The position numbers and the translations under genes are program-made. The notes under the pieces were generated by a model. It saw only the letters and a list, made by a program, of their open reading frames with translations, did no database searches and had not been told where the DNA came from. From Arthrobacter sp. TMP15 (GTDB lineage: Bacteria; Actinomycetota; Actinomycetes; Actinomycetales; Micrococcaceae), in NCBI RefSeq assembly GCF_039529835.1, contig NZ_CP154262.1, positions 3,472,001 to 3,536,000 of the forward strand: DNA of 64,000 bases, in the 5' to 3' direction. This document shows positions 44,495 through 61,243 of this stretch, one piece after another. How positions within the stretch are numbered: the stretch's first letter is position 1; every line of letters starts with the position of its first letter.

Positions 44495-44521
44495 CTATCG
44501 GCACAACCAAGACATGCGTTA
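44495..44521 (-). promoter_or_regulatory. Sigma-28 promoter of fliM operon
   Basis: TAAC (44521-44518), a 15-base spacer and GCCGATAG (44502-44495) on the minus strand. The -35 element overlaps the motB stop codon, and the predicted transcription start lies only a few bases before the ATG at 44486, so the fliM message may be almost leaderless. Confidence 0.75.
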
Positions 44522-45331
44522 GGAAGGAACAGCTTTTGCTTTCAATACTTCTGGAATTAGCGCACGAACTTCCTCGGGCTGGTTGGATAGCACCACTATG
44601 TCAACGCGTCTGTTTAGTTCGCGTAAAGATTCAGTGGAGTTGTCATTGACAGAGCGTGTACTTCCGTAGCCGATCGCAGCAACCTTGGCGCCGGGCAGAT
44701 TTCGGCGCTCCACAAGGTGACGCACCACACCGACGGCGCGTTCTGCGGACAACTCCCACACTGAGGGGTAGTTGGTGATGGCGTCGGCGGCGTGACCCTC
44801 AACAGAAATATCCAGACCGGAGGACAGCAGTGTGGGGGCGATCGTATCCAGTACGGCTGTAGCACGGGAGGATAGTTCTGGACTGTCTGGACGAAAGAAT
44901 GACTGCGAGCCAACTAGCTTTACGCTCAATCCACGGTGGTCGATCTGAAACTCTACGTTCTCAGCCAGTCCGTTTGTCTCCAGCCCCACGCGCATGGCCT
45001 CCTTCAGCGCAGTGAGGCGATCAACCTCGGTCACCGCTCGGTCTAGAGGAGTGTTCGTTAAAGTACCTTCCTTGCCCACATCTTCGGGTGGCACCACGAT
45101 TCCAGAGGCAGTATCCACCTTCCCAACATTCACCTGGCCAAAGCCACTGGCTAGCGAGTCACGAAGTTTCTCATACTTCACATCATCCACTGTGGACATG
45201 GCGTAAAGGACAATAAACATGCACATCAAAACAGTGACCATGTCCATGTAGGAAGCCATCCAGCGCTCATCCGGGTGGCTCTCTTCCGGTTTACCCCTCC
45301 GCTTGCGGGCAGTTTTACGTCCCTGACTCAT
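44519..45331 (-). CDS. motB: Flagellar stator protein MotB
   Basis: A 270-residue stator subunit anchored to peptidoglycan. The single membrane helix carries the proton-path Asp (RWMASYMDMVTVLMCMFIVL). The OmpA-type peptidoglycan-binding domain follows at about residues 130-255 (DISVEGHAADAITNYPSVWE, then LSAERAVGVVRHLVERRNLP and VAAIGYGSTR). ATGA overlap with motA shows translational coupling. Proton rather than sodium use is assumed from family and not proved. Confidence 0.95.
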   Translation of the reverse strand: MSQGRKTARKRRGKPEESHPDERWMASYMDMVTVLMCMFIVLYAMSTVDDVKYEKLRDSLASGFGQVNVGKVDTASGIVVPPEDVGKEGTLTNTPLDRAVTEVDRLTALKEAMRVGLETNGLAENVEFQIDHRGLSVKLVGSQSFFRPDSPELSSRATAVLDTIAPTLLSSGLDISVEGHAADAITNYPSVWELSAERAVGVVRHLVERRNLPGAKVAAIGYGSTRSVNDNSTESLRELNRRVDIVVLSNQPEEVRALIPEVLKAKAVPS

Positions 45332-46131
45332 GCTGCATCGCGGTCTTGGGCTTTACCACGTGTATTTTTCTTGCCACCCTGTTGGCGGTATGCGGGAACC
45401 ATGGCTGTCAACCGCTCACGCAACAGGGTGGGCTGGGACCCTGCCTGCACAGCCAAGACACCCTCGGTAATGAGAGTCATACGGTCCACTTCCAGCTCCG
45501 AGAGCCGGCTCAATCGTGAACCAATAGGTAGCCAGATGAAGTTTGCGGACAGCAAACCCCAAAGTGTAGCCACAAACGCTGCAGCAATCATGTGTCCCAG
45601 CTCTTCTGGATTCGAGAGATTCTCCAGTACGTGCGTCAGCGAAACAACTGTGCCAATGATGCCCACGGTGGGTGCGTAACCACCCAAAGTTGTAAAGAAT
45701 TTAGAGGCCGTATGATCACTTTTGATCTTAGTTTCAACGGCATCATCCAAGAGCTCGCGCAGATCTTCCCCATCGGTACCGTCCGCAATGTTCTGCAACG
45801 CATCGCGCAAGAACGGGTCTTTAGTCTCGGCCGCGGCAGCTTCAAGAGACAGCAGTCCCTCCCGACGCGCCTTGTCTGCCAGCGCCACGACCTGCTCGAT
45901 ACTCTCCCCAGGTTTCGGAGGTTTAGCTAAAAATGCTCTGGGAAGTGACTTTGCGGCATGCACAACATCCTTCAAGGTCGAACCAGCCACGCCAATGGCG
46001 ATGGTGCCAACCAGAACCAGCAGCATGGGGGCCGGGAGCGTCACGCTTGTGACACTGGCGCCCTCCAAAGTGATCATGCCAAACAAGGCACCGAAGGCGA
46101 TGAGCAGACCGAGTATTGTTGCGGGATCCAT
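45328..46131 (-). CDS. motA: Flagellar stator protein MotA
   Basis: A 267-residue stator subunit with four membrane helices. The conserved region around the helix 3-4 loop reads TTLGGYAPTVGIIGTVVSL and then LGHMIAAAFVATLWGLLSAN. The large cytosolic loop carries charged residues that contact FliG (VALADKARREGLLSLEAAAA). It starts 4 bp after flbD. Confidence 0.96.
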   Translation of the reverse strand: MDPATILGLLIAFGALFGMITLEGASVTSVTLPAPMLLVLVGTIAIGVAGSTLKDVVHAAKSLPRAFLAKPPKPGESIEQVVALADKARREGLLSLEAAAAETKDPFLRDALQNIADGTDGEDLRELLDDAVETKIKSDHTASKFFTTLGGYAPTVGIIGTVVSLTHVLENLSNPEELGHMIAAAFVATLWGLLSANFIWLPIGSRLSRLSELEVDRMTLITEGVLAVQAGSQPTLLRERLTAMVPAYRQQGGKKNTRGKAQDRDAA

Positions 46132-46135
46132 CGCT

Positions 46136-46414
46136 TTACGATCCTGACGTGGTGGGATTTCCGGAAGGGTGGATAATGCTTAATTTAGGTGGCGCCGGCA
46201 ATTCGATCTCATCCTCGGAGTAGTCATGGGCCATCGAGATGATGCGAGCACGGAAGCGGACAATTTTTTCAATGATGGCTGCCATTGATTCGGTAACAAT
46301 GTAGTTCGCCCCATCGGCCATGACCACAGTTGTGTCCGGAGACTCGAAGATTCGTTCAATCAAGTCTGGGTTCAGCGCAAACTCTCGCCCGTCCAAACGG
46401 GTGACACTGATCAA
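46136..46414 (-). CDS. flbD: FlbD-family protein
   Basis: A 92-residue protein. The first ~65 residues match the small FlbD family found in Gram-positive and spirochaete flagellar operons next to motA (MISVTRLDGREFALNPDLIE, then TVVMADGANYIVTESMAAII). The remaining C-terminal residues are variable. Start is TTG with AAGGATG upstream. It opens the flbD-motA-motB unit; role unknown, perhaps an assembly aid. Confidence 0.85.
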   Translation of the reverse strand: MISVTRLDGREFALNPDLIERIFESPDTTVVMADGANYIVTESMAAIIEKIVRFRARIISMAHDYSEDEIELPAPPKLSIIHPSGNPTTSGS

Positions 46415-46461
46415 GGGCTCATCCTTAGTTCATTGGGACGCCAGCCGTCCATCAAACGCTA

Positions 46462-46488
46462 CTGTCGGCTGACCCGCGCTATTGGTTA
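46462..46488 (-). promoter_or_regulatory. Sigma-28 promoter of flbD-motA-motB
   Basis: TAAC (46488-46485), 15-base spacer and GCCGACAG (46469-46462) on the minus strand, ending 48 bp upstream of the flbD start. A second -10-like CCCGACAG lies at 46506-46499 but its -35 (TGAT) is poor. Confidence 0.75.
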
Positions 46489-46644
46489 GAAAACGGCACT
46501 GTCGGGTCAGATGACCAAGAGATCAATTGCCACCCTGCGTACACAGGTGCCCCTTAAACAGATGTGGCGCAGCGCCTGAAGTGAAGTCCATAAAATATGG
46601 AAGTCCAGTTCACGCACTGCGCCATTGTCAGGGCAGCATCCTTA

Positions 46645-47829
46645 TCAGCGTTTGAGTTGCGTCAATTCCTGCAGCACTTCATCCGAGGTGGTGATGATGC
46701 GGGCGTTGGACTGGAAGCCACGCTGGGCAACGATCAGGTTGGTGAATTCCTGAGACAGGTCCACATTTGACATTTCCACATAGCCACTAGCCAAGGAGCC
46801 CAAGCCGTTGGACCCGGCTGTTCCAACCGCCGCCGCTCCAGATGATGCCGTGGCACGGTAGGAGGAGGAGCCGGCTTTTTCCAAACCACCGGCGTTGGTG
46901 AAGTTGGCTAAGGCTATGCGACCGATCACCATGTTTCCACCGTTGCTGAACGTTCCCGTCAGGGTGCCGTCCGTTCCCATGCTGAAGGAGTCCAAGGTGC
47001 CGGCGGCACTTCCATCGGTTGCAGTGACGGCAAGTGTGCTCATTTGAGCGAACCCGGTCACGGCGCCCATATTGACACTCAACCCGCCAATGTTCATTGT
47101 TCCGCCGCCGGTCAGGGCACCATTGGTGAAAGTCAGTGCCGTGGCGCCTGTAGCGGCTCCACCGGGTGCGTTCGTATCGGCGCCGGTGACGTCCCAACCG
47201 GTCCCGGTGCGGGTAAATGTCAGCGAAACGTTCCGGGGATTGCCTGCGTCGTCAAAGACCTTCATGTCGCGTGTCTGTACGGTGCCGGCAATAGCATCGT
47301 CGGGCAGGTTCCCACCTAACGTGGCGCTCGTTGTGCGGGATGCGTCAGACACCATCTGCTTGGAAATGGAAATGTTGCCCAGTCCCGCCCCGGTGTTGAC
47401 GACTCCATTGACTGCTGACCAACCCTGCAGCAAGGCACCGTCGGGTGAGACCAGGCGGCCCTGCGAATCGAAGTCGAACGACCCTGCACGCGCATAAAGC
47501 TGCTCTCCGCCTTTGGCAGTAATGAAAAATCCGTCGCCGGAGATCATCATGTCAGAGGAACGGCCAGTTGCTTGGGCTGAACCTTGGGAGAAGTTAGTGG
47601 AGATACCTGCCACCTGGACACCCAGACCCACCTGTGCGGGGTTTGTTCCGCCAGCCTGTGCTTGAGCTGCGGAGCCGGAACGAGCCACCTGGGACAGTGT
47701 GTCTTGGAACTGGACCGTGGAGGACTTGAAACCGGCCGTGTTGACGTTGGCAATGTTGTTGCCGGTGACGTCAAGCATGGTTTGGTGTGCGCGAAGACCG
47801 GAGATTCCGGAATACAAGGAACGAAGCAT
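46645..47829 (-). CDS. flgE: Flagellar hook protein FlgE
   Basis: A 394-residue hook protein exported by the flagellar T3SS. The N-terminal rod/hook motif is MLRSLYSGISGLRAHQTMLD with GNNIANVNTAGFKSS, and the C-terminal motif is SGYVEMSNVDLSQEFTNLIV followed by QRGFQSNARIITTSDEVLQE. The middle is Gly/Ala/Thr-rich, as usual for the exposed domains. It lies 78 bp after flgD with no visible sigma-28 site, so it is probably read through from upstream. Confidence 0.96.
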   Translation of the reverse strand: MLRSLYSGISGLRAHQTMLDVTGNNIANVNTAGFKSSTVQFQDTLSQVARSGSAAQAQAGGTNPAQVGLGVQVAGISTNFSQGSAQATGRSSDMMISGDGFFITAKGGEQLYARAGSFDFDSQGRLVSPDGALLQGWSAVNGVVNTGAGLGNISISKQMVSDASRTTSATLGGNLPDDAIAGTVQTRDMKVFDDAGNPRNVSLTFTRTGTGWDVTGADTNAPGGAATGATALTFTNGALTGGGTMNIGGLSVNMGAVTGFAQMSTLAVTATDGSAAGTLDSFSMGTDGTLTGTFSNGGNMVIGRIALANFTNAGGLEKAGSSSYRATASSGAAAVGTAGSNGLGSLASGYVEMSNVDLSQEFTNLIVAQRGFQSNARIITTSDEVLQELTQLKR

Positions 47830-47907
47830 GATGTGAAGCCTTTCTGTACTTGGTGGGTAAGGGTCAAGCTGGTTGATAAAAGTCGTGCCTGTGCAGGCGA
47901 GTGGCAG

Positions 47908-48381
47908 TTAGATGGAAACGGGTTCAGGTTTTCCCGTACTGGTTATTCCGGATATGTGATCCAAGGGAATCATTTTCCCCCCGACACTGACTTGCGGAAC
48001 GGCGTTGATGAAGGACACCGAAGAGGCAATCCCACTGTGTGCTGTGCCGTCAGCATCTTGCCAACTGACCTGCTCGCCAATCAGTGCAGCTGCTGCCGTG
48101 CGCATTTGGAGAGAGAAACTCTCCGTAGCCGTTTTGTCCATATTGGTCAGCTTTTCCATGGTGGCCAGTTGGGTAGTCTGACTAATCATTTCGTTCGTGT
48201 CCATCGGCGAGGATGGGTCTTGATGGCGCAACTGGGCAACAAGCAGGTTCATGAACACTTCGGAGTCCATGACTTGTTTAGGATCACGCCGACCGGGAAT
48301 GTTGTTGATCCCATCCACCGCTGTGGGCGGCTGCATGGAATTGCCAGATGGCGTCAATGGGGCAATCGAATTTTCGCTCAT
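47908..48381 (-). CDS. flgD: Flagellar hook capping protein FlgD
   Basis: A 157-residue hook-cap scaffold. The FlgD signature is MDSEVFMNLLVAQLRHQDPS with MDTNEMISQTTQLATMEKLT. It is shorter than the ~230 residues of enterobacterial FlgD, which is common in Gram-positives; the C-terminal beta domain is reduced. It lies 15 bp after fliK. Confidence 0.93.
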   Translation of the reverse strand: MSENSIAPLTPSGNSMQPPTAVDGINNIPGRRDPKQVMDSEVFMNLLVAQLRHQDPSSPMDTNEMISQTTQLATMEKLTNMDKTATESFSLQMRTAAAALIGEQVSWQDADGTAHSGIASSVSFINAVPQVSVGGKMIPLDHISGITSTGKPEPVSI

Positions 48382-48396
48382 GGTTTGCCTGCCTTT

Positions 48397-49761
48397 CTAT
48401 ACGGTGATGTCCAGTGAATTATTTATTGCGCCCGCGGGCGCAGGCGGCATGGGACCGTGCGGGTTCGGGTCTTGATCAGTCTTTAGTGCCATGCTATTGC
48501 TCCACGGACTTGTCACCGTTTGGGAATTGCGTTGCTCACCCTGGTTTGCAGGGGAGTTCCCGCTGCCCAATGACAGCGAAGATGCCATCCCCCCGGTAGC
48601 AAGATCCCGTCTCAGGTCGGAAAGGATGCCCCGCAGCCCCTCCCTGCCCGCTTCGCTTGCGGCGATTAGTTCAATGTGTATACCGTCGGCGCTCAACTGA
48701 GCCCTTACGGTAACTGGTCCAAGAGCATCAGGGACCACACTGATTTTCATGACGTGCTCCCCCAGGGGGGCTCCCGCCAGCGTGAATAGCGGACGTGCCA
48801 GCTGTTCAACTAACGCTGGCGCGGGCGTATGTCCGTGTGCCGCAACCGGCGCCGCGGCGGAAGCCTGGACCGGAGCCTGCGGCGGTGTCACGGCCACTGC
48901 AGATAATGCGGGGATGGTCGGAGCCTCCGGACCGCCTACCGCTTGCTCTGCGACAGGAATTACTCTCTGACTTGCCAAGTTGCCAAGGCTCAGCGCGGGG
49001 CTTCCTGCCTCAGTAGCGAGAGTTGGCGTAGAGCCGGTTTCTGCCATCGCATTCGCAGCGGACGCACTGGCTGACCCAGCAGGTGACAGCGCTGTGTCAG
49101 CGCCCTGCGCCAAGGGAGTTATGGAAACAGGAGTCTTTGCACCCTCAGGCGAGACCGGACCGTGTGACTGCTGGGGATTCTGCTGGCCACCCCCCGCTGC
49201 GGCTTCGCCTGCATGACCGGAGGCAAGGCGCTCGGGTGCCGTGGCACCGGCTGTCGCTGGCGCGGTTGCAGCGGCCCCGGGTGCGGTGCCCCCAAATGCA
49301 ATGGACGCGGAAGAATCAGCCTCGGAACCCAAAGTTCCAGCTTCCGCGCCAACACCGGTGCCGTCAAGGCCCTCTTCTGCTCCGGCAACAACACCATCCG
49401 GAGTTGCCGGCACTGTTATTGCCGGCAGAGCCGGATCCGCCGGCTGCATGACGGCGGCCCAAAAGTCTGAAATCGAGACAGCAACAGTGCCAGCTGGCAG
49501 ACCCTGGGCAGACTCGGGCGAAGAATCCGGGGAGCCGGCTCCGACTCGGGAATTCGCGTCATTGGGTGCATTATCTTCCACGTCAACGGTGTTGGTGCCG
49601 GTGTTCTGCAGCCCTCCCGTCTTGTTTCCCAACCCATGCTTCAAGGCATCTTGCAGGGACGCACCAAAGCTCGTCCCAGATCCCTCCGTTGAGGAGTGCG
49701 CGGCACCGCGGCCACCGAGCCCACCCGCTGACATGGTGGTCAATGTGTCGATGGACCTCAT
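48397..49761 (-). CDS. fliK: Flagellar hook-length control protein FliK
   Basis: A 454-residue, Ala/Pro/Ser-rich protein whose long low-complexity N-terminal part acts as a molecular ruler. The conserved C-terminal domain, which signals FlhB, is present at about 320-420: LAGAPLGEHVMKISVVPDAL, then ADGIHIELIAASEAGREGLR. Starts with an ATGA overlap with fliJ. Assignment rests on position between fliJ and flgD and on the C-terminal domain. Confidence 0.88.
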   Translation of the reverse strand: MRSIDTLTTMSAGGLGGRGAAHSSTEGSGTSFGASLQDALKHGLGNKTGGLQNTGTNTVDVEDNAPNDANSRVGAGSPDSSPESAQGLPAGTVAVSISDFWAAVMQPADPALPAITVPATPDGVVAGAEEGLDGTGVGAEAGTLGSEADSSASIAFGGTAPGAAATAPATAGATAPERLASGHAGEAAAGGGQQNPQQSHGPVSPEGAKTPVSITPLAQGADTALSPAGSASASAANAMAETGSTPTLATEAGSPALSLGNLASQRVIPVAEQAVGGPEAPTIPALSAVAVTPPQAPVQASAAAPVAAHGHTPAPALVEQLARPLFTLAGAPLGEHVMKISVVPDALGPVTVRAQLSADGIHIELIAASEAGREGLRGILSDLRRDLATGGMASSLSLGSGNSPANQGEQRNSQTVTSPWSNSMALKTDQDPNPHGPMPPAPAGAINNSLDITV

Positions 49762-50213
49762 CGGTTCACCCGCAAGCTTGTAGCGGTGCCTGCGTCATCT
49801 TGGCTGGTTGCGCGCGAAACTGCCAGCTCGTCCAGGAAGAGCTGTTCATCGTGGAGTAACAGTTCCTGGCGGTCCATTTCGTGACGGTCGGCTAATTTTT
49901 CCAGCGATGCAGCAGATTTTTTGGCAATCAGTAAATCTTTCTCAGCATTCGAGGCAGCCTCCTCCACTGAGCGGGTCAGCGCTGCCAACTCCAACAACAT
50001 GCTCCGTGAAGACGAACGCGCCGCGGCCGTGGCCCGCAAAGCGGCAGCAGATCCGGCGTTGGATGGCGCAGCTGCCAGAGTGCCGCGCACTTTACTCACG
50101 TGCTCGCGCTGTTCCTTACGCCGCGCATTTGCTTGCGCCAAAGACGCCGCTGCCTGTTCCTCTTGCGCCTGACGGAACCGTAAGAGACCGGCCAAACGGA
50201 ATGTGCTGCCCAT
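49758..50213 (-). CDS. fliJ: Flagellar export chaperone FliJ
   Basis: A 151-residue, almost entirely coiled-coil protein (RFRQAQEEQAAASLAQANAR, then LEKLADRHEMDRQELLLHDE). It is the central stalk of the FliI ATPase ring. Directly contiguous with fliI and overlapping fliK, the canonical order. Sequence similarity in this family is always weak, so position carries much weight. Confidence 0.88.
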   Translation of the reverse strand: MGSTFRLAGLLRFRQAQEEQAAASLAQANARRKEQREHVSKVRGTLAAAPSNAGSAAALRATAAARSSSRSMLLELAALTRSVEEAASNAEKDLLIAKKSAASLEKLADRHEMDRQELLLHDEQLFLDELAVSRATSQDDAGTATSLRVNR

Positions 50214-51539
50214 TTATGCTCCTGAAATCATGGTGGATAAAGCGCGAAGCTGTGCCCACGATTGTGGGGCCGGAATTTGTTCGTCCATACTTTGTTGAAG
50301 AAAATCGTTGATCGCCGCACCGTGCTGAACGGCCGCATCCACCAAGTGGTTACTCCCTGCCTGGTACGCGCCGACGTCTATCAGGTCCTGGGCCGCGGCC
50401 CGTGCCGCCAACACCTTACGCAAGGTGCCGGCGTCGTTCTTCTGCCCGGGGGCACACACCTTGGAAGCCACACGTGAGATGGAGGCAAGCACGTCGATGG
50501 CCGGGAAATGCCCTGCCACCGCCAATTTGCGTTCCAACACCACGTGACCGTCGAGGATTGAGCGGACGGCATCAGCGATCGGCTCATTGTGATCATCACC
50601 ATCCACCAACACCGTGTACAGGCCGGTGACGGATCCCACTTTGTCGGTGCCTGCCCGTTCCAGCAGTCGCGCTAGGACAGAAAAGGTCGACGGCGGGTAC
50701 CCTCGTGTTGCTGGCGGCTCACCAACGGACAAGCCTATCTCGCGTTGCGCCATTGCCACCCGGGTCAACGAATCCATCATGAGCATGGCATCAACCCCGC
50801 GTTCCCGGAACGACTCCGCTATCCGGGTTGCAGTGAATGCGGCACGCAGGCGCAGCAGGGCTGGTTCGTCACTTGTGGACACCACAACGATCGAGCGTGC
50901 CAGGCCTGCAGGACCCAGATCGTCCTCTAAAAATTCGCGCACCTCACGCCCGCGTTCCCCCACCAACGCGATGACTGACACCTGCGCCTCGGTGCCGCGG
51001 GCAATCATCGAGAGCAGGGAAGACTTGCCCACTCCGGAACCAGCAAAAAGCCCCAAACGTTGGCCGCGCCCCGTGGTGGTCATGGTGTCCAAAACCCGCA
51101 CCCCGGTCTGCAAGGGCGTGGTGATGCGGGCCCGCTGCATGGAATTGGGTGACTTGTTTTCCAGCGGCACCCCTGTCACGCCTTGTAAGGGGCCGAGCCC
51201 GTCGATTGGGCGGCCAAGCCCATCAATAACCCTGCCCAAAAGCCCGTCCCCCGTGGGAACCAAGAGGGGGACTTGTTTGGCCCTCACCAGGTCACCCTCG
51301 CCAATACCGTTCATGGGTGCCAGCGGCATGATCCGCACGCTACCTACCGCCACGGCGACCACTTCAGCATCCACGGGGTTGCGCTCACCAATAGTGACCA
51401 TGTCCCCCACAGCGCAGCGTAGGCCGCTCACCTGGGCGGCTAATCCAACAACACCTGTCACCACGCCTACTCTTTCGGGCGCAGCTGCCCGTACGGCCGT
51501 TGCCATCCGATGGGAGCCGGTGAGAGTAGCGGTCCTCAT
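50214..51539 (-). CDS. fliI: Flagellum-specific ATPase FliI
   Basis: A 441-residue F1-beta-like ATPase that energises export. Walker A is GLFAGSGVGKSSLLSMIARG, Walker B is in VDAMLMMDSLTRVAMAQREI, and the family signature PSTFSVLARLLERAG follows. N-terminal beta-barrel and C-terminal domain are full length. ATGA overlap with fliH. Confidence 0.97.
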   Translation of the reverse strand: MRTATLTGSHRMATAVRAAAPERVGVVTGVVGLAAQVSGLRCAVGDMVTIGERNPVDAEVVAVAVGSVRIMPLAPMNGIGEGDLVRAKQVPLLVPTGDGLLGRVIDGLGRPIDGLGPLQGVTGVPLENKSPNSMQRARITTPLQTGVRVLDTMTTTGRGQRLGLFAGSGVGKSSLLSMIARGTEAQVSVIALVGERGREVREFLEDDLGPAGLARSIVVVSTSDEPALLRLRAAFTATRIAESFRERGVDAMLMMDSLTRVAMAQREIGLSVGEPPATRGYPPSTFSVLARLLERAGTDKVGSVTGLYTVLVDGDDHNEPIADAVRSILDGHVVLERKLAVAGHFPAIDVLASISRVASKVCAPGQKNDAGTLRKVLAARAAAQDLIDVGAYQAGSNHLVDAAVQHGAAINDFLQQSMDEQIPAPQSWAQLRALSTMISGA

Positions 51540-52279
51540 GACCGTCCCGTCATGCGCGACGCTGCATGAGCGTTCGCCGCCGCGGCAGTGGGCGCTTGGG
51601 CACCGGGAACTAGGGCGTCCAGAACGGGTGCGTCCGCGGTCAATGCGCTGGCCGGCAGAAAATCGCCCAGCAGTGCGGATCGGGCCCTGTCCAAGGCTGT
51701 GGCAAGCCGAGCATCAAGGAATCCGTCGGCGTATTCGGCAATGGCGTCGCCCCTGCCGATGCTTGCATCGTTTTGGATGGCCACGCCGTCAGGAAAATCG
51801 GAGTTGGGCAGCGCTGCAATATCCGCAGGATTCATTCGGATACTCACTGGTATTTCGGTATGAGCCCGTGCGCAGGCACGCGCCAGTGCGGCCCGTGCGG
51901 ATGTTTCCCCGTCCCGCAGCTCATGGCCCAGCAGTGCCTGCGCCAGTTCAAGGGCATATCCAAAAAGAGCTTGTTCTGCGTGCGCTAGAACCGGCACGGT
52001 GCGGTTCGTGAGCGCGGCGCTGGCCAGGTTCAGGGCGCCCAGACCCTCTGTTTGCCGAGTTTCCAACGTGGCCAGCAGCACCTCGTGTTCCATGTTCTGT
52101 TGTTTCGCTTGTGCCGCAGCCTCCTGTTCAGCACGTTGCAATCCAGCCACGTAGCCGGCGGCATGGCCTTGGGTGAATCCGCTGGATTTTGCTTCCTGTA
52201 GGGCGTGGGCTTGGGCCGAAGTAGCTACTACTGGGAACACCGCTGGGCGCGGTACCGAATGGTTAGTAGACAATGTCAT
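51536..52279 (-). CDS. fliH: Flagellar assembly protein FliH
   Basis: A roughly 247-residue regulator of FliI. I start it at the ATG at 52279 (MTLSTNHSVPRPAVFPVVAT), since GAGGGG lies six bases upstream; an ATG two codons earlier is also possible, and the longer open frame is antisense-free but overlaps fliG by 150 bp. FliH features are the Gly-x-x-x-Gly repeat-like segment GFTQGHAAGYVAGLQRAEQE and the C-terminal FliI-binding helices and small domain. Confidence 0.88.
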   Translation of the reverse strand: MTLSTNHSVPRPAVFPVVATSAQAHALQEAKSSGFTQGHAAGYVAGLQRAEQEAAAQAKQQNMEHEVLLATLETRQTEGLGALNLASAALTNRTVPVLAHAEQALFGYALELAQALLGHELRDGETSARAALARACARAHTEIPVSIRMNPADIAALPNSDFPDGVAIQNDASIGRGDAIAEYADGFLDARLATALDRARSALLGDFLPASALTADAPVLDALVPGAQAPTAAAANAHAASRMTGRS

Positions 52280-53306: not shown

Positions 53307-54904
53307 CAGACACCCACTTTTTCATCCATGAGCGAGCGCAATAGTCCGGCAGTTTTTTGCGGATCCGCACCGGCCAGCGCCTCCAAAGATGCTCGCTTGG
53401 AATCGGCGTCGCTACTTTCGGCCACAGGCAGGGCAGCGGGTACGGGAATTGCCGTGAGTGCAGTCGTGGCAGGTTCAGGATCAGCAGGAAGCTTTGTCAG
53501 CGAGACCAGCTGCCGGCTCTGCTCACCGAGGTCTACTAATTCACGCACCTGGCGACGATTTTTGCGTGCATAAATGACAATTACCACCAGCAGCAGCAGC
53601 AGCAATACTGCAGCGATGCCCAGATTGCGCCATGTTTCTGCGGTCTTCGCCGCACCCGCTTCGGCCTTGGCTGCATCAAGGGCAGCTTGGGCAGCCTCGG
53701 ACTGAGCTGTGGAGAAAGGCACTACCTTCATGCTGACAGTATCTCCGCGACCCGGGTTTAACCCGGCGGCCATTGAGACCATTTCCGTCAAAGTTGCTGC
53801 GTCGATTTTGGCCGCTGCGGCTGTGTCGACGGCGACTGCAAGCGACTGCCGCTGGACATTCCCAGCAGGTATAACGGTATTTTCCGTTACCTTGTCGATG
53901 GCGTTGTTCTTGGTTGTCTTATTCGACTCCGAGGTTCCGCCAGCATCACCAGCACCGCCGGGAACAGCAATGTTATCTGGACCTAGCACGCCAGCTCCTG
54001 ACCCACTACCTCCCGTGCCTTTCTCGGTGGAGGTCGACTCGTTCAGGGCTGGCGCACCTTCCGGAGAGGTGAAAGACTCTTTCATTCTGTCCGTCGAAGC
54101 GTTGTCCATGGTGGCTGAGAGAGTCACACTGGAATTACCTGGACCAACTACCGTATCCAGCATGGACTGCACAGCAGCACTAACGCGTTGCTCGTAGGCT
54201 TGGGCCTGTTTTCCACCGCTTCCAGTGGCACCATTTCCTGCGGCCGAAAGCACGGCCCCCGCCGCATCGACAACGGAAACGTTTGCTGGCTTCAAAGCCT
54301 CTACCGAGGATGACGTGAGGTGCACAATCGCGTTGACCTGATCATCGGAGAGGCTGACACCAGGGTTGGTTTCCACGAACACTGACGCGGTGGGGTCCTG
54401 CTTGGTGGCCGTGAACACTGTTTGTTCAGGGACCGCCAATTTTACGGAGGCCATAGTCACGCCCTTCATCGCCATGATGGTTTGTGCTAGTTCTCCCTCC
54501 ATGGCACGTTTGTACGTGATGTTTTGTTGAAACTCCGATGACGTCACACCCATACTGTCCAGCAGTGAGTAACCTGCCGTGGTTGCCGCGGGAAGACCAG
54601 CGGAGGCAGCCTTGAGACGCTGGTCATAAACATTGGCGTCCGGCACCAAAATGGTGGCACCGCCGTTAACTAGTTGGTAGGGCACATTATCGGTTTTAAG
54701 TTGCGTGACAATGGCATTGGCGTCGGCCGGTGCCAAAGAGGAAAATAGCGGGGCATAGCTGGGTTTCGTGACCCAACTAAACAAGGCCACGCTGCCTAAT
54801 ACCAAAACAGCCAACCCAATAACCACCAAGGTTTTTTGGGCCATGGTGAAACCCTTGGCCATGCCGGAAAAACGAGCTGGAAAAGCGGTGAGAAACGGCG
54901 GCAT
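53306..54904 (-). CDS. fliF: Flagellar MS-ring protein FliF
   Basis: A 532-residue membrane ring protein. Membrane helix 1 lies near residues 25-48 (TLVVIGLAVLVLGSVALFSW). The secretin-like ring-building motifs follow (YAPLFSSLAPADANAIVTQL, LPAATTAGYSLLDSMGVTSS), then the second helix at about 440-460 (NLGIAAVLLLLLLVVIVIYA) and a C-terminal tail that binds FliG. Starts one base inside the fliE stop. Confidence 0.97.
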   Translation of the reverse strand: MPPFLTAFPARFSGMAKGFTMAQKTLVVIGLAVLVLGSVALFSWVTKPSYAPLFSSLAPADANAIVTQLKTDNVPYQLVNGGATILVPDANVYDQRLKAASAGLPAATTAGYSLLDSMGVTSSEFQQNITYKRAMEGELAQTIMAMKGVTMASVKLAVPEQTVFTATKQDPTASVFVETNPGVSLSDDQVNAIVHLTSSSVEALKPANVSVVDAAGAVLSAAGNGATGSGGKQAQAYEQRVSAAVQSMLDTVVGPGNSSVTLSATMDNASTDRMKESFTSPEGAPALNESTSTEKGTGGSGSGAGVLGPDNIAVPGGAGDAGGTSESNKTTKNNAIDKVTENTVIPAGNVQRQSLAVAVDTAAAAKIDAATLTEMVSMAAGLNPGRGDTVSMKVVPFSTAQSEAAQAALDAAKAEAGAAKTAETWRNLGIAAVLLLLLLVVIVIYARKNRRQVRELVDLGEQSRQLVSLTKLPADPEPATTALTAIPVPAALPVAESSDADSKRASLEALAGADPQKTAGLLRSLMDEKVGV

Positions 54905-55203
54905 CAGGCCTGCATCCTCATGATCTCGTTGAATGCGTCAACCCCGCGGATGCGCAGTGTGGAGACTAACTCCAGGGTTACAGCGGCCCTGGCTGAGGCA
55001 ATCGTGGCTTGATGAATATCATCCAGACTTCCCGTTGCGGCCTTGACCGCCATGGTGTTCGAGGTGGACTGCAGTCCCTGCAGATCACTCAACGCCCCCG
55101 TCAATGAGTCGCCAAAGGCACCGTTGTCGGTACTGGGTTGCACCTGAGGCATGTACCCCGTTCCGATGCTGGCCTGTACGCCTTCAATTCCAGAAACACT
55201 CAT
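54904..55203 (-). CDS. fliE: Flagellar hook-basal body protein FliE
   Basis: A 99-residue export-gate/rod adaptor. The C-terminal signature is TLELVSTLRIRGVDAFNEIM followed by RMQA. It lies 3 bp after flgC and overlaps fliF by one base. Confidence 0.93.
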   Translation of the reverse strand: MSVSGIEGVQASIGTGYMPQVQPSTDNGAFGDSLTGALSDLQGLQSTSNTMAVKAATGSLDDIHQATIASARAAVTLELVSTLRIRGVDAFNEIMRMQA

Positions 55204-55206
55204 CGG

Positions 55207-55593
55207 CTACTTTCCAATCTGCAATCCGGATTCGTACATAACTTTGGCTCGGTCTACCACTGCAGCGTTGACTTGGTATCCACGCTGGGCCATGATCAAC
55301 TGGCCCATTTGGGACGCCATATCAATATCGGGGTACCGGACATAACCGCCCTCATCCGCCAATGGATGGTCAGGTTCAAAGGTCATTCGCCCTTCTGCGC
55401 TACCGCGTGCCGCACCAGCTACGTAAACGCCCGAGTCCCCTGCCCCTGCTTCAGCAATGATGTACCGGGCACGGAAAGCTTCCTCGGTTGTGGCCGTCAC
55501 GGTATTGACGTTGGCGATGTTGTCCGAAACGGCGTCGAGCCATTTGCGGTGCAGCGTTAATCCGGTGGAGGCAATGCCAATTGCGTCGCTCAC
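55207..55593 (-). CDS. flgC: Flagellar proximal rod protein FlgC
   Basis: A 128-residue rod protein. N-terminal rod motif IGIASTGLTLHRKWLDAVSD with NIANVNTVTATTEEAFRARY and the C-terminal motif VRYPDIDMASQMGQLIMAQR followed by GYQVNAAVVDRAKVMYESGL. Immediately follows flgB. Confidence 0.95.
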   Translation of the reverse strand: MSDAIGIASTGLTLHRKWLDAVSDNIANVNTVTATTEEAFRARYIIAEAGAGDSGVYVAGAARGSAEGRMTFEPDHPLADEGGYVRYPDIDMASQMGQLIMAQRGYQVNAAVVDRAKVMYESGLQIGK

Positions 55594-55935
55594 TTATTGG
55601 CTCTTAAGAACTGTGCGCATGGAGTTGAATTCGCTGTTAACCGCGTGGGCGGCAAATTGGTACCGCAACACGGTTTCTATATTTGAAAGCGTCTCAGTGT
55701 CCAGGTTGACGTTGTTGCCGTTGAGCTGGGTAGGCTCCACCGAACGTTCCGTAGTGGCGCGCACATCACCGTCGCGGCGGTTGACGGATTCGGCCAAGGC
55801 GGCTTCGAATTTCACCCTCTGGGCAGTGTAGCCGGGGGTATTGACGTTTGCGATGTTGTCGGCAATGGCGCGTTGGCGCATGGACAATCCATCGAGGGCG
55901 CTGGTGAGCGCCACAGTAACCACGGAATCAAGCAC
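55594..55935 (-). CDS. flgB: Flagellar proximal rod protein FlgB
   Basis: A 113-residue rod protein. GTG start with AAGGAAG upstream. The N-terminal motif is LTSALDGLSMRQRAIADNIA with NVNTPGYTAQRVKFE; the C-terminal motif is LETVLRYQ-like (SNIETVLRYQFAAHAVNSEF). First gene of the basal-body unit, driven by the sigma-28 site at 56009-56035. Confidence 0.95.
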   Translation of the reverse strand: MLDSVVTVALTSALDGLSMRQRAIADNIANVNTPGYTAQRVKFEAALAESVNRRDGDVRATTERSVEPTQLNGNNVNLDTETLSNIETVLRYQFAAHAVNSEFNSMRTVLKSQ

Positions 55936-56008
55936 TGAGCTCTTCCTTGATGTAAAACTTGAGGCCTGTCCGTGGCTGAGGGGCGAGCCGTCCGTAGCTC
56001 ATCTGTCA

Positions 56009-56035
56009 CTATCGGAAGCTTGGGAAGTACCGTAA
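56009..56035 (-). promoter_or_regulatory. Sigma-28 promoter of flgB basal-body operon
   Basis: TTAC (56035-56032), 15-base spacer, TCCGATAG (56016-56009) on the minus strand, 74 bp upstream of flgB. The bases after the -10 (TGACAGAT) are identical to those after the fliM -10. Confidence 0.75.
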
Positions 56036-56111
56036 GAGAAATACACACTATTTTTAAGTTGTTTGTGAGTTGCTCTCATTCCGCCCGGCCGGCCGGGGTT
56101 CGTGAAAGCAG

Positions 56112-56495
56112 TTAGCCCATGACGTCAAGATAAATGGCGGGTGCATCACGCTGAACTGTTTTCAGCGTTCCAAGTTCTGTGGCAGTGCTTTCGCGTGATG
56201 TTTGCAAGGCTTGGATCATCTGGTTCTGTAGCTCAGCTAGATTCTTTGCCCGCTCACGCAGTGCTTCAGGCAAAGGGCCAAGATTCATCGGCGGAACCCA
56301 GCCGCGGTTCTGCAACACTGCCACCGACAGTTGCTCTTCCAACTCAGCCAGGACAGTTTCCCACTGCGCCCGGGCTGCATCCACCAGGTCTGGCAAATCA
56401 GCCACTCCACTTTCTGCCGGAGGGCTCGGAGCCGGGATTCTTTCGGGTGCGGGTTGCACTGGTTCAACGAACCGTTCTTTGCGCGGCCAAATCAC
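56112..56495 (-). CDS. Hypothetical 127-residue flagellar-cluster protein (FliT-like candidate)
   Basis: A 127-residue protein without a recognised domain. It has a Pro-rich N-terminus (PVQPAPERIPAPSPPAESGV) followed by a helical region (DAARAQWETVLAELEEQLSV, then ALRERAKNLAELQNQMIQAL). It overlaps the fliS stop by 4 bp. The place after fliD and fliS, and its small helical make-up, match the spot where the FliD chaperone FliT often lies, but sequence alone does not prove this. Confidence 0.7.
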   Translation of the reverse strand: MIWPRKERFVEPVQPAPERIPAPSPPAESGVADLPDLVDAARAQWETVLAELEEQLSVAVLQNRGWVPPMNLGPLPEALRERAKNLAELQNQMIQALQTSRESTATELGTLKTVQRDAPAIYLDVMG

Positions 56496-56917
56496 GAGGT
56501 GTAGCCGCCAGCCTGGGCACCCGTGAGGATACCGGAGGGCAGAGCCGCAGCCTCATGCCAGGTGAGTCTAAGTGGTTCAAAGAGATCGATGCACTCGCGG
56601 GTTAGCGCGGGATCACGCCGGATATTGGCGTTCATCAGCGCCGTCCCCGCGTAATTGTAGATGCCCAGCAGCTGGTCTGCCCCGGCCCACAGTTCCGGTT
56701 GCAAGGATCCGGAGAGCTCGCCGATGATGTCCTGAGCATGCAGCAGATTATCACTGGCCACCGACCAGTCAGAGGCGTTCTGCGCAGTTTCCGCGCGAGC
56801 TAGATCCAGGAGCAACCTGTCATAAAGCATCGTCAGGAGACGCGCAGGGGTTGCCGAGAGGATTGCCTCACGCTGGTAGGAGTTCAGCGCCTTATTACGG
56901 CTGCTTGCATTCATCAT
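56492..56917 (-). CDS. fliS: Flagellin export chaperone FliS
   Basis: A 141-residue helical chaperone that holds flagellin unfolded before export. N-terminal signature YQREAILSATPARLLTMLYD and RLLLDLARAETA. It overlaps fliD by 4 bp. In Gram-positives FliS-flagellin and FliW-flagellin binding are linked, and fliW is also present. Confidence 0.94.
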   Translation of the reverse strand: MMNASSRNKALNSYQREAILSATPARLLTMLYDRLLLDLARAETAQNASDWSVASDNLLHAQDIIGELSGSLQPELWAGADQLLGIYNYAGTALMNANIRRDPALTRECIDLFEPLRLTWHEAAALPSGILTGAQAGGYTS

Positions 56918-58296
56918 TTCTTGCCTGCCGCATCAAAGGAGTTAATTTGGGCCGTCAACCACGATTGCTGCGATTGCATCTTGCTCATCTGAACCTCCAG
57001 TGACGTGTAGACGGCCTGCAATGACGCTCTACGCGTCATCAAACGGGAATCCCAGTCCAGAATTTGAGTGTTGAGATCATTGATGATCGATTGCTGACCT
57101 TTGACTCTTTGGGACAGTGAACCTACGTCAGGGCCAGAAATCGACTTGGCCGCTTCTTCCACCCGCGAGGCCATAGTTTGAAGCATCTTTTCGGTAGCCA
57201 CCGGGTCTTTGGCATACGCTGACGCAAAAACGTCTGGTTCGAAGGAGAGGTCACCGTTCTTTGTGGTGTTGAAGCCGATTGTCGCCGGGGAGAACCCGTT
57301 GATGGGGGATGTAACCGAGTTGAACAGCTTGGTTTTGGCATCGGAAACAGTACTGTTCCCGGAAAAGAGTCCGCCCTTGACAGATGCCCCATCCGAGCCG
57401 GCTCCCGACGTGAGAGTTGACTGGGTCAGGATGGAACCCAGGATGATGTTTATATTGCTAGAGAAATCTTTGGCTGCGGAAGCTACTTTGGCCGAGTCAC
57501 GTGAGGCGCCAACCGTGACAGGCTCAGCCGAGACTTTGTTGACAGTGATATCCAGTCCGGGAGCAAGCCCGGCGAAGGTGTTACTAGCCGAAGTGATCAC
57601 CTGTTCGGCAGTGGTGCCAGCCCAAAGTGTCATTTTGGCGTCCAGCCCGGTTTGTAGCGTGGTCCATGCCCCTGGGCTTGTCAGGGGTACGGCAGTGCCT
57701 GCCTCAACCTCTGCGGCGGTGCCCTGGTGAGCTACGAAGCCATTGGCGGCTCCGGTGTCCTTGGCAGTGAGCTGGAGCCGGTATTGCGTGGCGCCATCGG
57801 CGTCAACACCTGAGGCAATTTTGACGGCTGAAATTCCTGCATCGGATCTGTTAATGGCGTAGGCCATTGCATCAAGGGACGTGGACTCGGCGGTGACCTC
57901 GGTGGTGGTGCCGTCACCTTTAACAAAGGTCATGACGGCCGGGCTAGCCGGCCACTCCGTCATAGGACCACTGACGTTTGACTGTGCTCGTGCCAACGCA
58001 TTGACACTCAGATTCAGGCTGGTAGTCACGGCACCGGGCCCCAATTTGGCGGTGATCGCATCAGATGAGGACGTGGCCTGAAACATGTCCAGACCTCCGG
58101 TTTTCGCCAGCGCCCCAGCTTGGCTGGTCAGTGCGGCAAACTTAGTATTGAGCGCCTGCATTGCCGTAACCAAAGCGGTATCGGTAACAACCCTGCTCTT
58201 CATCAGCGCCTGGGGGCGGGACTCGGCGGCAATGAGCGCGTTGATAATTGCCGTTGTGTCCAATCCGGAGGACAGTCCGTCGATTCCCAAGCCCAT
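56914..58296 (-). CDS. fliD: Flagellar filament cap protein FliD
   Basis: A 460-residue hook-associated protein 2. N-terminal D0/D1 motif MGLGIDGLSSGLDTTAIINA with LIAAESRPQALMKSRV; C-terminal coiled coil DLNTQILDWDSRLMTRRASL followed by LEVQMSKMQSQQSWLTAQIN. The 129-bp gap to flagellin contains a hairpin but no visible sigma-28 site. Confidence 0.94.
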   Translation of the reverse strand: MGLGIDGLSSGLDTTAIINALIAAESRPQALMKSRVVTDTALVTAMQALNTKFAALTSQAGALAKTGGLDMFQATSSSDAITAKLGPGAVTTSLNLSVNALARAQSNVSGPMTEWPASPAVMTFVKGDGTTTEVTAESTSLDAMAYAINRSDAGISAVKIASGVDADGATQYRLQLTAKDTGAANGFVAHQGTAAEVEAGTAVPLTSPGAWTTLQTGLDAKMTLWAGTTAEQVITSASNTFAGLAPGLDITVNKVSAEPVTVGASRDSAKVASAAKDFSSNINIILGSILTQSTLTSGAGSDGASVKGGLFSGNSTVSDAKTKLFNSVTSPINGFSPATIGFNTTKNGDLSFEPDVFASAYAKDPVATEKMLQTMASRVEEAAKSISGPDVGSLSQRVKGQQSIINDLNTQILDWDSRLMTRRASLQAVYTSLEVQMSKMQSQQSWLTAQINSFDAAGKK

Positions 58297-58350
58297 GTGG
58301 AGCTTCCTTTTCGCAGTGAGATATTAGATCTTAAAGTGGACCATGCACAG

Positions 58351-58384
58351 CTGGGGGTACGGATAAGTCCGCACCCCCAGCTGA
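58351..58384. terminator. Hairpin downstream of flagellin gene
   Basis: Arms CAGCTGGGGGT and ACCCCCAGCTG with a further imperfect inner pairing lie about 45 bp after the fliC stop. No T-tract follows, so it may attenuate or protect the flagellin message rather than end it fully. Confidence 0.5.
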
Positions 58385-58425
58385 CCTGCACTCCGGAACT
58401 TTAGAGTCCCGGTAAGTTACTCGAT

Positions 58426-59595
58426 TTAGCCGAGCAGCTTCAGGACGCCCTGGTTGGACTGGTTGGCCTGGGCCAACATGGCCGTGCCTGCCTGCGCCAA
58501 GATGTTGGAGCGCGTGAAGTCCACCATTTCTGAAGCCATGTCCACATCAGTGATGCGTGACGTGGCTGCGGACAGGTTTTCCTTGCCAACATTCAAGTTG
58601 CTGATAGCTGATTCAAGGCGGTTCTGCACGGCACCGAGGTCGGCGCGGGCTGCAGAAACCGTCTTGATCTGCGTGTCGATCAGGTTCAACGATGCCTGCG
58701 CATTCGTAGCGGTCTCAAAATTCAGTCCGCCTGTCATCGGGGTTCCCGCTGTGCCAACCGCAGTACCAGCTGTAGTCGGCGCAGTTGTACTAACTACTCC
58801 ACCGTCTTTAGCCATAACAGTGATACCAGTGCCCGCACCGTTGGCATCCTTGTTTACGCTGACTGTGAAGTTAGCTGCAAACGAAGCGTCGCCGCGCAGT
58901 GCATCGGCGTACTTGTCAACGCTGTCGAAAGCTCCAGCAGCGCCGAGGTCGGCCGTCGTGACTGTGGTTGCCACGCCACCTTTGGTTGTCGTAAAGCTCG
59001 CAGGACCAGCAACAGTCAAGATATCGGCAATGTCAAACTTCGTGCCCGAAGTTGTCAGGTTACCGCCAGCGAGCGTGTTCGCAATTGTCTCGACGTTCGC
59101 ATTAGCAAGATTGACCGAAATCTGGTTGGACTTATTGCCGTCCGCACCGACCTGGAACGTCATATTCGCCGTCGACCCATCCAACAGTGACTTGCCGTTG
59201 AACTTTGTGGCCTCAGACATGCGCGTCAGCTCTGCTGTCAGCTGAGTGGTTTCCTTCTTGATGGCCCCGCGAGAATCGTCATTGTTTGAATCGTTGCCGG
59301 CCTGTACAGCCAGATCACGCATACGCTGCAGGATGGACTGTACCTGAGTCAGCGATCCTTCAGCGGTCTGAACAACGGAGATGCCGTCCTGAGCGTTACG
59401 AGCAGCAACGGTGTAACCGTTGACCTGTGACTTCAGGCCTTCGGAGATGGCCAAGCCGGCTGCGTCATCTGCGGCACGGTTGATGCGAAGACCACTGGAG
59501 AGCTTCTCCATTGACTTTCCCAGCGCATTCTGGGTGGTGCTCAAATTGCGGTAAGCGTTGTTAGCCGCGAGGTTTGTGTTGACTTGCATGCCCAT
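58426..59595 (-). CDS. fliC: Flagellin
   Basis: The 389-residue filament protein. The N-terminal D0/D1 region is canonical (NTNLAANNAYRNLSTTQNAL, then KLSSGLRINRAADDAAGLAI), as is the C-terminal D0 (TDVDMASEMVDFTRSNILAQ, then GVLKLLG). The variable middle is Thr/Ala/Gly-rich. A very strong Shine-Dalgarno (ACGGAGGATT) precedes the ATG. The leader contains a hairpin with a GGA loop. Only one flagellin gene is seen in the window. Confidence 0.97.
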   Translation of the reverse strand: MGMQVNTNLAANNAYRNLSTTQNALGKSMEKLSSGLRINRAADDAAGLAISEGLKSQVNGYTVAARNAQDGISVVQTAEGSLTQVQSILQRMRDLAVQAGNDSNNDDSRGAIKKETTQLTAELTRMSEATKFNGKSLLDGSTANMTFQVGADGNKSNQISVNLANANVETIANTLAGGNLTTSGTKFDIADILTVAGPASFTTTKGGVATTVTTADLGAAGAFDSVDKYADALRGDASFAANFTVSVNKDANGAGTGITVMAKDGGVVSTTAPTTAGTAVGTAGTPMTGGLNFETATNAQASLNLIDTQIKTVSAARADLGAVQNRLESAISNLNVGKENLSAATSRITDVDMASEMVDFTRSNILAQAGTAMLAQANQSNQGVLKLLG

Positions 59596-59600
59596 GAGTA

Positions 59601-59649
59601 AATCCTCCGTGAGTTGGGGTATGACCGAAGCCGCCCATCCATGGGCAGC
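59601..59649 (-). promoter_or_regulatory. Flagellin leader with GGA hairpin and GGA Shine-Dalgarno (CsrA target candidate)
   Basis: On the minus strand the leader has a hairpin (59649-59630) with arms GCTGCCCA and TGGGCGGC (one G.U pair) around a UGGA loop, so GGA is exposed. The ribosome binding site ACGGAGGATT (59610-59601) is a second GGA site. Two GGA elements, one in a loop and one at the Shine-Dalgarno, are the hallmark of CsrA-controlled flagellin leaders in Bacillus. Binding is inferred. Confidence 0.6.
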
Positions 59650-59658
59650 TAAACACCA

Positions 59659-59685
59659 CTGTCGGCACCCACCTGCAAGCCGTAA
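59659..59685 (-). promoter_or_regulatory. Sigma-28 promoter of flagellin gene
   Basis: TTAC (59685-59682), 15-base spacer, GCCGACAG (59666-59659) on the minus strand. The predicted transcription start leaves a leader of about 55-60 bases consisting mainly of the GGA hairpin and the Shine-Dalgarno. Confidence 0.75.
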
Positions 59686-59723
59686 GAAGAACCACTAAAA
59701 GTTTCTCCTTGGCACCATATGAT

Positions 59724-60581
59724 CTATCTGGAGCTGGGACGGCTCAACTGTGCAGGCATCCCGCGCAGAGTTTGCCGTGCCCGGGTGGCGCCACCGTAGG
59801 TGCGGGTGCCCAGCTCGGCCAGATAAGACTCCCGGCGGGATACTGTGATCCGTGCATGAGCCGGGGAATCCGGCGTAGAACTCGCCAGGTAGTGCCGTTC
59901 TAACCCGTCACGCAGCAACCGCATGCCCTCTGCACGTTGCTGAGACACAGCGGAGTGGCTTGAGCCTAACTCCATCGCAAGTTCTTTCACGCTGCGATCA
60001 TGGAAGTAGATTTGTTCAACGATGTAGCGCATCTTCTCCGGCAGGGCAGCCACCGCATGGCCAAGAAAATCAGCATGCTCCGCCTCCACCACTTGCTCTT
60101 CTGGCCCCTGCGAGGTGGCCGCCACCATCTCGGCTATGACGTCAGTCAACGGTGTGACAGTTCGGCTTGCGTCAATCTGCGATGCTTCCACCACTGACTT
60201 TTCAACACCGAGCGCAGAGGCCAGTTCGCCAAGACTGGGCGGGCGTTTCAACACATTCGCCAGGGTCTCTTTGACGGCTGCAAGCTCGGTCATCCTGCTG
60301 CGCGCACCCCGCGTGGCCCAATCATCGCGGCGTAGCTCATCGGCAAAGGCACCTTTAATCCGCCGGCGGGCATAGGCGCCAAACGGCACACCCATACCTT
60401 CGTCAAAGGCCTCGGCACAGTGAATCAGGGCCATAGCCCCAACCTGAACAAGGTCTTCCCTACTTAAATGGTTTGCGCGGAGGAAGACCTCCGCTACGAG
60501 ATATCCAACCAGCGGCAAATTTTGCACGACCAGAGCGTCGCGCTCAACGCGATTCAATTTTTTGCCCCCTAGGCAATTCAT
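59724..60581 (-). CDS. fliA: Flagellar sigma factor FliA (sigma-28)
   Basis: A 285-residue group 3 sigma factor. Region 2 is visible (REDLVQVGAMALIHCAEAFD, then GVPFGAYARRRIKGAFADEL and RRDDWATRGAR), as is region 3 (RPPSLGELASALGVEKSVVE) and region 4 (PEKMRYIVEQIYFHDRSVKE then LAMELGSSHSAVSQQRAEGM). About 55 C-terminal residues go beyond region 4. I show the ATG at 60581; a TTG at 60557 with AGGGGG seven bases upstream is an alternative start. No anti-sigma gene (flgM) is recognisable in the window. Confidence 0.93.
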   Translation of the reverse strand: MNCLGGKKLNRVERDALVVQNLPLVGYLVAEVFLRANHLSREDLVQVGAMALIHCAEAFDEGMGVPFGAYARRRIKGAFADELRRDDWATRGARSRMTELAAVKETLANVLKRPPSLGELASALGVEKSVVEASQIDASRTVTPLTDVIAEMVAATSQGPEEQVVEAEHADFLGHAVAALPEKMRYIVEQIYFHDRSVKELAMELGSSHSAVSQQRAEGMRLLRDGLERHYLASSTPDSPAHARITVSRRESYLAELGTRTYGGATRARQTLRGMPAQLSRPSSR

Positions 60582-60692
60582 AAAAGTGCATCGACGGGCT
60601 CGCCCCCAGAATTCAGCGATCGCCGATAGCGCACTAATCAAGACAACTGTAGGGCACTGAGGCCACAAAAAACACCTCTAGAAAAAAATGAC

Positions 60693-60719
60693 TAACCGGT
60701 GTACTTTTACTGCCGATAG
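60693..60719 (+). promoter_or_regulatory. Sigma-28 promoter of flgN-flgK-flgL-fliW
   Basis: TAAC (60693-60696), 15-base spacer, GCCGATAG (60712-60719) on the plus strand, 41 bp upstream of the flgN start. It is the only plus-strand copy of the set and shares the same 15-base spacing. Confidence 0.75.
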
Positions 60720-60760: not shown

Positions 60761-61243
60761 ATGGGTCCTGAGGAACTGAGCACGTTATTGTGGCGTGAGC
60801 GGGAACTCCTTGACCTTCTGGTTTTCAAGTTGGAAGAGGAACATTTGATCCTCTCAACAGGGAAAACCCGTTGGCTTGAAAGCGCCACCCGTGAAGTGGA
60901 CCATGTTGTCCAACGGCTGCGCGCAACCTCACTGGAGCGCACCGTGGTGGCGTCCCAGCTCGCCGTTTCTTGGGGTCTAGCGGAGGATGCCGGTCTGCTG
61001 GATCTCGCAGATGCCGCTTCCACAGGACCTTGGCAGGAAATTCTCACAGAACACCTTCAGGCCATGCTGGCCACGGTGGAACAAATCCGTGGGCAACGGG
61101 ACATTAATCTACAGTTTCTGCGTGCTGGCTTACGCTCTGCGCAAGACACCGCCGCCAATCTCAGTCCTGAGGCTGGCACCTATGACCACCGTGGGAAAAC
61201 CAGCCAAGATGCGGTTTCTCTGCTGCTGGATAAAAGTGTCTAA
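60761..61243 (+). CDS. flgN: Flagellar export chaperone FlgN
   Basis: A 160-residue helical chaperone for the hook-filament junction proteins FlgK and FlgL, encoded next. The FlgN fold is recognisable as two long helices (LSTLLWRERELLDLLVFKLE, EHLILSTGKTRWLESATREV) and a C-terminal helical part. AAAGGAAC precedes the ATG. Function assignment rests on family pattern plus position before flgK. Confidence 0.88.
   Translation: MGPEELSTLLWRERELLDLLVFKLEEEHLILSTGKTRWLESATREVDHVVQRLRATSLERTVVASQLAVSWGLAEDAGLLDLADAASTGPWQEILTEHLQAMLATVEQIRGQRDINLQFLRAGLRSAQDTAANLSPEAGTYDHRGKTSQDAVSLLLDKSV

Follow-up and report, generated by a model that had tools for sequence, protein, structure and literature searches.

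A clade-wide -35 variant at predicted FliA-type flagellar promoters of Arthrobacter and a matching difference in the FliA recognition helix

Promoters of the sigma-28 class are regarded as highly conserved from enterics to Streptomyces. Can the -35 code of these promoters, and the flagellar sigma factor that would read it, change together in one bacterial lineage? The locus that raises this question lies in a 64-kb stretch of DNA (C1:3472001-3536000, hereafter the window) from the 3.7-Mb genome of a soil Arthrobacter. A complete-looking flagellar cluster spans 36.1–63.9 kb of it, and the FliG encoded there does not differ from the FliG of Arthrobacter sp. H35-MC1. An earlier note on this DNA had proposed five matched sigma-28 promoters and suggested that their consensus was perhaps a lineage-specific variant. 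Three lines of evidence uphold the first proposal: some 40 relatives keep the motif at orthologous operons, motif, FliA and flagella co-occur, and the distance to the fliM start is fixed at 8 nucleotides (nt). The second proves larger than first thought, as the variant is a clade-wide consensus accompanied by a matching change in the FliA helix.

The five sites and their conservation

The pattern T(A/T)AC-N15-(G/T)CCGA(T/C)AG matches the window exactly five times, upstream of fliC, flgB, flbD, fliM and flgN, so that the positions, strands and placement given in the earlier note hold, as does the common spacing of 15 nt in all five sites (Table 1). The number expected by chance in the window, estimated from dinucleotide shuffles, is 0.02. 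Each site is additionally preceded by a C, which makes the -35 element CTWAC and the full form CTWAC-N15-KCCGAYAG, with an expected count of 0.003 per 28 kb. The -10 element reads KCCGAYAG in 5/5 sites, a GCCGATAA-like sigma-28 core. The fourth -35 base is C in 5/5 sites, which sets them apart from the TAAA class of sigma-28 promoters, and the window contains no site of the form TAAA-N14-16-GCCGAYAR.

A scan of the whole genome returned six exact matches, five of them in the window. The sixth (C1:1063914), which reads ATAAC, was rejected as a regulon member and is probably a chance match, since no C precedes its TAAC and no flagellar gene lies nearby. With one mismatch allowed, the genome gave 53 matches and the reversed pattern 150. 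Information therefore lies in the exact motif alone, and no further members were taken from that scan. An orphan GCCGATAG near 60620 (+) was set aside as it has no -35 element. Upstream of fliA, neither the window nor any of the relatives examined has a site that would indicate autoregulation.

In the flagellar loci of 40 relatives within the family, the motif recurs upstream of the five orthologous genes at near-constant distance while the spacer sequence diverges, and the consensus across flagellated Micrococcaceae is CTWAC-N15-GCCGAYAG. Spacing is 15 nt in 136/147 clade sites and 16 nt in the other 11. The earlier note had named two marks of the variant: the fourth-base C of the -35 element is indeed diagnostic, whereas the final G of the -10 element is common (136/147 clade sites) yet not invariant, and is also seen at some E. 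coli FliA sites. In 24 of the 31 genomes that have the site, the flbD promoter (-10 at 46462-46469, -) keeps GCCGACAG, whose sixth base is C, unlike the flgB, fliM and flgN promoters, which carry GCCGATAG; this variant perhaps reflects a tuned promoter strength. A fragmentary fliC match in one genome (G078) gave a spuriously long upstream region, and the resulting noise in the clade counts (one stray GTCAG, one fliC site and one hairpin row) leaves the conclusions unchanged.

Motif, sigma factor and flagella occur together. Among 395 genomes of the family, surveyed with a FliA threshold of E up to 1e-25, 124 have both FliA and FliG, 2 FliG only, 4 FliA only and 265 neither, so that FliA is present in 124/126 flagellated genomes. 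The exact motif is found 3.58 times per flagellated and 0.50 times per non-flagellated genome, compared with 1.07 for the reversed pattern in both, and is thus at or below chance level in the non-flagellated relatives.

The -35 element and the FliA recognition helix

The clade was compared with some 40 flagellar loci drawn from other families in the class, along with the FliA genes that those genomes carry, and the -35 element was read by conditioning solely on GCCGAH within upstream regions. Clade upstream regions have CTWAC in 136/191 cases and CTCAR in 0, whereas those of the other families have CTCAR in 57/106 and CTWAC in 0; the reversed-sequence control gave 1. At a spacing of 15 nt, the five letters are CTAAC (93) or CTTAC (34) in the clade and CTCAG (45) or CTCAA (9) in the others. 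Counted by genome, at least one strict CTWAC site is present in 43/46 clade genomes and at least one CTCAR site in 33/34 others, where the form is CTCAR-N15-GCCGA and CTWAC is found in none (n=34).

The gene for the presumed reader, fliA, lies inside the cluster, as the earlier note had said, and is the one strong FliA match in its own genome. Its product has both Sigma-70 regions beyond the Pfam cut-offs (PF04542, 7.6e-12; PF04545, 1.1e-07), its top NCBIfam match, first of 48 families, is TIGR02479 (FliA_WhiG, 4.8e-33), and its nearest solved structures are FliA and WhiG, with FliA 1rp3 as the best PDB match. In place of the ESRVSQ helix of the FliA/WhiG family, however, the window protein reads HSAVSQQ. 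Helices of this kind are found in 46 clade genomes, against ESR(V/I)SQ-like helices in 34 others: residue 211 is Ala in 46/46 clade FliAs and Arg in 34/34 others, and residue 209 is H, S or P in the clade and E, D or L elsewhere. Five columns fully separate the two FliA classes, two of them inside the helix. The counterparts of A211 and H209 in E. coli FliA are R220 and E218, and we take the two positions, by homology with sigma-70 region 4.2, to sit in the -35-reading helix. His 209 was rejected as the sole determinant: genomes with Ser at this position (three, in genera g7 and g20) still use CTWAC, so that His 209 is dispensable; Ala 211 is the constant residue. The strict pattern failed to catch one genome of family f9 that has the His/Ala helix and, at three of its promoters, CTTAC-N15-GCCGAGAG.

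Both the FliG tree and a FliA tree built without the helix place the two classes on two sides of one branch, with the exception of G102, and the switch in helix and -35 element is a single event. We propose that the -35 element moved from CTCA(A/G) to CT(A/T)AC, other bacteria having TAAA, in the ancestor shared by Micrococcaceae and two related families, together with a Glu/Arg to His/Ala exchange in the region 4.2 helix of FliA, for which the Arg to Ala change at 211 is the tightest correlate. That the His/Ala exchanges themselves caused this one-time change of code at all flagellar operons, leaving a branch that may not cross-read classical sigma-28 promoters, is the account towards which we lean.

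Neutral drift is the strongest competing account: the promoters would be FliA-dependent, FliA would tolerate any T-rich -35 element, and the helix changes would be unrelated. Such drift agrees with the single event on the trees and with the variation at single positions of sigma-28 promoters elsewhere. It is disfavoured because the five -35 letters are near-fixed within each class over dozens of genomes despite a free spacer, and drift would not hold C in one clade and A or G in the other. In addition, the recognition helix holds two of the five FliA columns that tell the classes apart; we judge drift unlikely. A second possibility, that another sigma factor reads the sites, draws on the 12 region-4 sigma matches in the genome and on the indirect nature of the case for FliA dependence. 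We find it very improbable, as FliA and the motif accompany flagella across the 395 genomes, the -10 core is that of sigma-28, and the -35 element tracks the FliA helix.

Several observations weigh against the interpretation that FliA reads these sites through a changed helix. The window FliA scores 114.8 bits against TIGR02479, for which the curated cut-off is 189.6; a clade relative reaches 127.7, and ESR-type actinobacterial FliAs 190.1 and 171.9. We regard the window protein as a divergent branch that is FliA-like and presumably works as FliA. Some orthologous operons have no recognisable site. The class labels were taken from the helix itself, and other changes on the same branch could be responsible for the switch; with a single switch on the trees, the pattern is strong and the proof of cause weak, and causality is something we infer. 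Finally, two genomes of family f4 (G772 and G531; L149 and L150) combine the Ala helix with GTTAC and a shifted -10 element, CGCGATAG, possibly a further code change inside the clade. Genome G102 (L103), which lacks csrA, has the helix SDATVSK and a GTGAAA-like -35 element at fliC and flbD, possibly a third code; its congener G133 did not bear out such a third helix/-35 pair, and the case remains an anecdote.

The fliM start, the operons and their leaders

The distance between promoter and gene at fliM speaks independently for a core promoter. In 22/25 genomes the first in-frame start codon (ATG or GTG) lies exactly 8 nt after the -10 octamer; the three exceptions have GTGs at 2 and 8, a start at 7, and none before 37. 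In the window (44486-44522, -) the -10 element ends 8 nt before the ATG and the TAA of the -35 element is the motB stop codon, an overlap found in nine genomes. Transcription would begin some nine bases past the -10 octamer, at fliM on the start codon itself, and since the 8-nt gap leaves no space for a Shine-Dalgarno sequence, the fliM mRNA is most simply read as leaderless across the family. We found no report of a family-wide leaderless fliM in the literature within reach, which left out most subscription papers. That the motif is a transcription-factor binding site, as two half-sites at fixed spacing might suggest, is scarcely credible, given that neither half-site repeats the other and that a start fixed at 8 nt is what start-site choice by polymerase predicts. 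We consider the explanation as a whole, with promoters read by FliA, one tier of transcription, a single -35/helix switch and a leaderless fliM, to be highly probable.

Each of five flagellar operons, whose extents are judged from gene order and short gaps, is headed by one site, and fliA is the sole cluster gene behind none (Table 1). The five sites would be core promoters, one per operon, read by RNA polymerase carrying FliA, the sole FliA-family sigma factor found in the genome. Export gate, rod, MS ring, switch, stators, hook, filament, CsrA and FliW would form one transcriptional tier, and fliA alone would be driven by something else. The genome has no FlgM anti-sigma factor by PF04316, as is also reported for other flagellated Actinobacteria (PMC2587704), and no methyl-accepting chemotaxis protein by PF00015, which removes such genes as candidate regulon members; the organism may perhaps have flagella without chemotaxis, and a FliA without its usual anti-sigma factor.

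A second layer of control may act in the leaders. In Bacillus subtilis CsrA-FliW-hag regulation, csrA and fliW lie in flagellar operons, and the flagellin leader carries a GGA hairpin and a GGA at the Shine-Dalgarno sequence. The parts of such a flagellin circuit are all present here: csrA, fliW and, in the flagellin leader, a GGA hairpin together with a GGA at the Shine-Dalgarno sequence. A GGA-loop hairpin is found in the fliC leader of 39/42 clade genomes (40/43 with one artefact row) and in the flgB leader of 44/46, often in two copies, compared with 3/35 flgN leaders and 2/37 flbD leaders, the shuffled level (~7%), and the fliC and flgB stems show base changes on both sides across the clade. 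The second flgB hairpin has a 3-bp stem in the window and a longer one in most relatives; taken whole, the flgB leader of the window folds no better than shuffles. csrA is present in 9/10 flagellated and 0/8 non-flagellated relatives tested. Because of these hairpins, CsrA would be expected to target both flagellin and the rod operon, the conserved second hairpin set in the rod-operon leader being a difference from Bacillus subtilis.

Two neighbouring genes stand apart from these subjects. An open reading frame (ORF) of 300 amino acids between flhA and csrA (ORF300, 36430-37332, -) has no match in Pfam or NCBIfam; its N-terminus looks FlhF-like by eye, and no clear GTPase motif was seen. A Stealth-domain protein (34573-36111, +) adjoins the flagellar cluster.

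Table 1. Features of the flagellar cluster, in window coordinates
Feature	Coordinates	Strand	Evidence or remark
fliC promoter, FliA-type (predicted), TTAC-N15-GCCGACAG, C before	59659..59685	-	Pattern match; kept in relatives
flgB operon promoter, FliA-type (predicted), TTAC-N15-TCCGATAG	56009..56035	-	Pattern match; kept in relatives
flbD-motA-motB promoter, FliA-type (predicted), TAAC-N15-GCCGACAG	46462..46488	-	Pattern match
fliM promoter, FliA-type (predicted), TAAC-N15-GCCGATAG	44495..44521	-	Pattern match; fixed start distance
flgN-flgK-flgL-fliW promoter, FliA-type (predicted), TAAC-N15-GCCGATAG	60693..60719	+	Pattern match; kept in relatives
fliA, FliA/WhiG-family sigma factor, 285 amino acids from ATG	59724..60581	-	Pfam, NCBIfam, PDB match
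FliA recognition helix, residues 207-219	59925..59963	-	H209/S210/A211 and Q215 replace E/S/R and L/M/I
fliC-fliD-fliS-(127-amino-acid ORF, FliT position) operon	56112..59595	-	ORFs, tblastn synteny
flgB-flgC-fliE-fliF-fliG-fliH-fliI-fliJ-fliK-flgD-flgE operon	46645..55935	-	ORFs, Pfam, NCBIfam, tblastn synteny
flbD-motA-motB operon	44519..46414	-	ORFs, Pfam, tblastn synteny
fliM-fliN-fliO-fliP-fliQ-fliR-flhB-flhA-ORF300-csrA operon	36131..44486	-	ORFs, Pfam
flgN-flgK-flgL-fliW operon	60761..63940	+	ORFs, Pfam
fliC leader hairpin, UGGA in loop (CsrA-type)	59629..59650	-	Leader comparison
flgB leader, two hairpins, ACGGA in loop (CsrA-type)	55964..56001	-	Leader comparison
csrA	36131-36394	-	End of fliM operon
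fliW	63557-63940	+	End of flgN operon

Relation to known flagellar regulons

The E. coli sigma-28/FliA regulon (TAAA-N15-GCCGATAA) involves the same sigma family, the same -10 core GCCGATA, the same 15-nt spacing, and flagellin and late genes. The Arthrobacter promoters differ in a -35 element that ends in C rather than A, with T or A as its second base, and in that they also head the rod, switch and export operons, without a detectable FlgM. E. coli too has FliA sites at fliLMNOPQR, with no clear effect, and a weak sigma-28 promoter at flgB. In the examined portion of table 2 of PMC4183435, on E. coli FliA sites, TAAC appears at low-scoring sites only, and GCCGATAG occurs at flxA and yrfF.

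The common flagellar consensus is taken as -35 TAAA and -10 GCCGATAA, and the flagellar genes of Actinoplanes are reported to be directed by FliA/WhiG-type sigma factors (PMC8325347). The earlier note had called it unlike the enteric hierarchy that a flagellar sigma factor should govern basal-body and switch operons; this stands, but the arrangement is not new in Actinobacteria, as Actinoplanes missouriensis likewise has its flagellar genes under FliA/WhiG-like sigma factors (PMC8325347). WhiG of Streptomyces and Rubrobacter belongs to the same family, with a GCCGATAA -10 element and an ESRVSQ helix like that of the non-Arthrobacter class; it differs in serving sporulation or pilus genes, in its TAAA -35 element, and in its control by RsiG and cyclic di-GMP (RsiG was not searched for here). 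Hashiguchi and colleagues (in 2020) reportedly derived the promoter consensus CTCA-N15-17-GCCGAA(A/C) for Actinoplanes missouriensis, which resembles the Arg-211 class, whereas the Arthrobacter clade differs from it with CTWAC. No report of the altered CTWAC -35/helix pair was found in a search that most subscription papers lay beyond.

A clade-wide change of the -35 element together with a few residues of the helix offers a natural test of how a sigma factor and the code of its regulon change together, and CTWAC-N15-GCCGAYAG is a ready motif for annotating the flagellar operons of Micrococcaceae. The locus also presents an apparently one-tier flagellar programme that lacks FlgM, and suggests that a leaderless mRNA is the conserved start of the switch and export operon.

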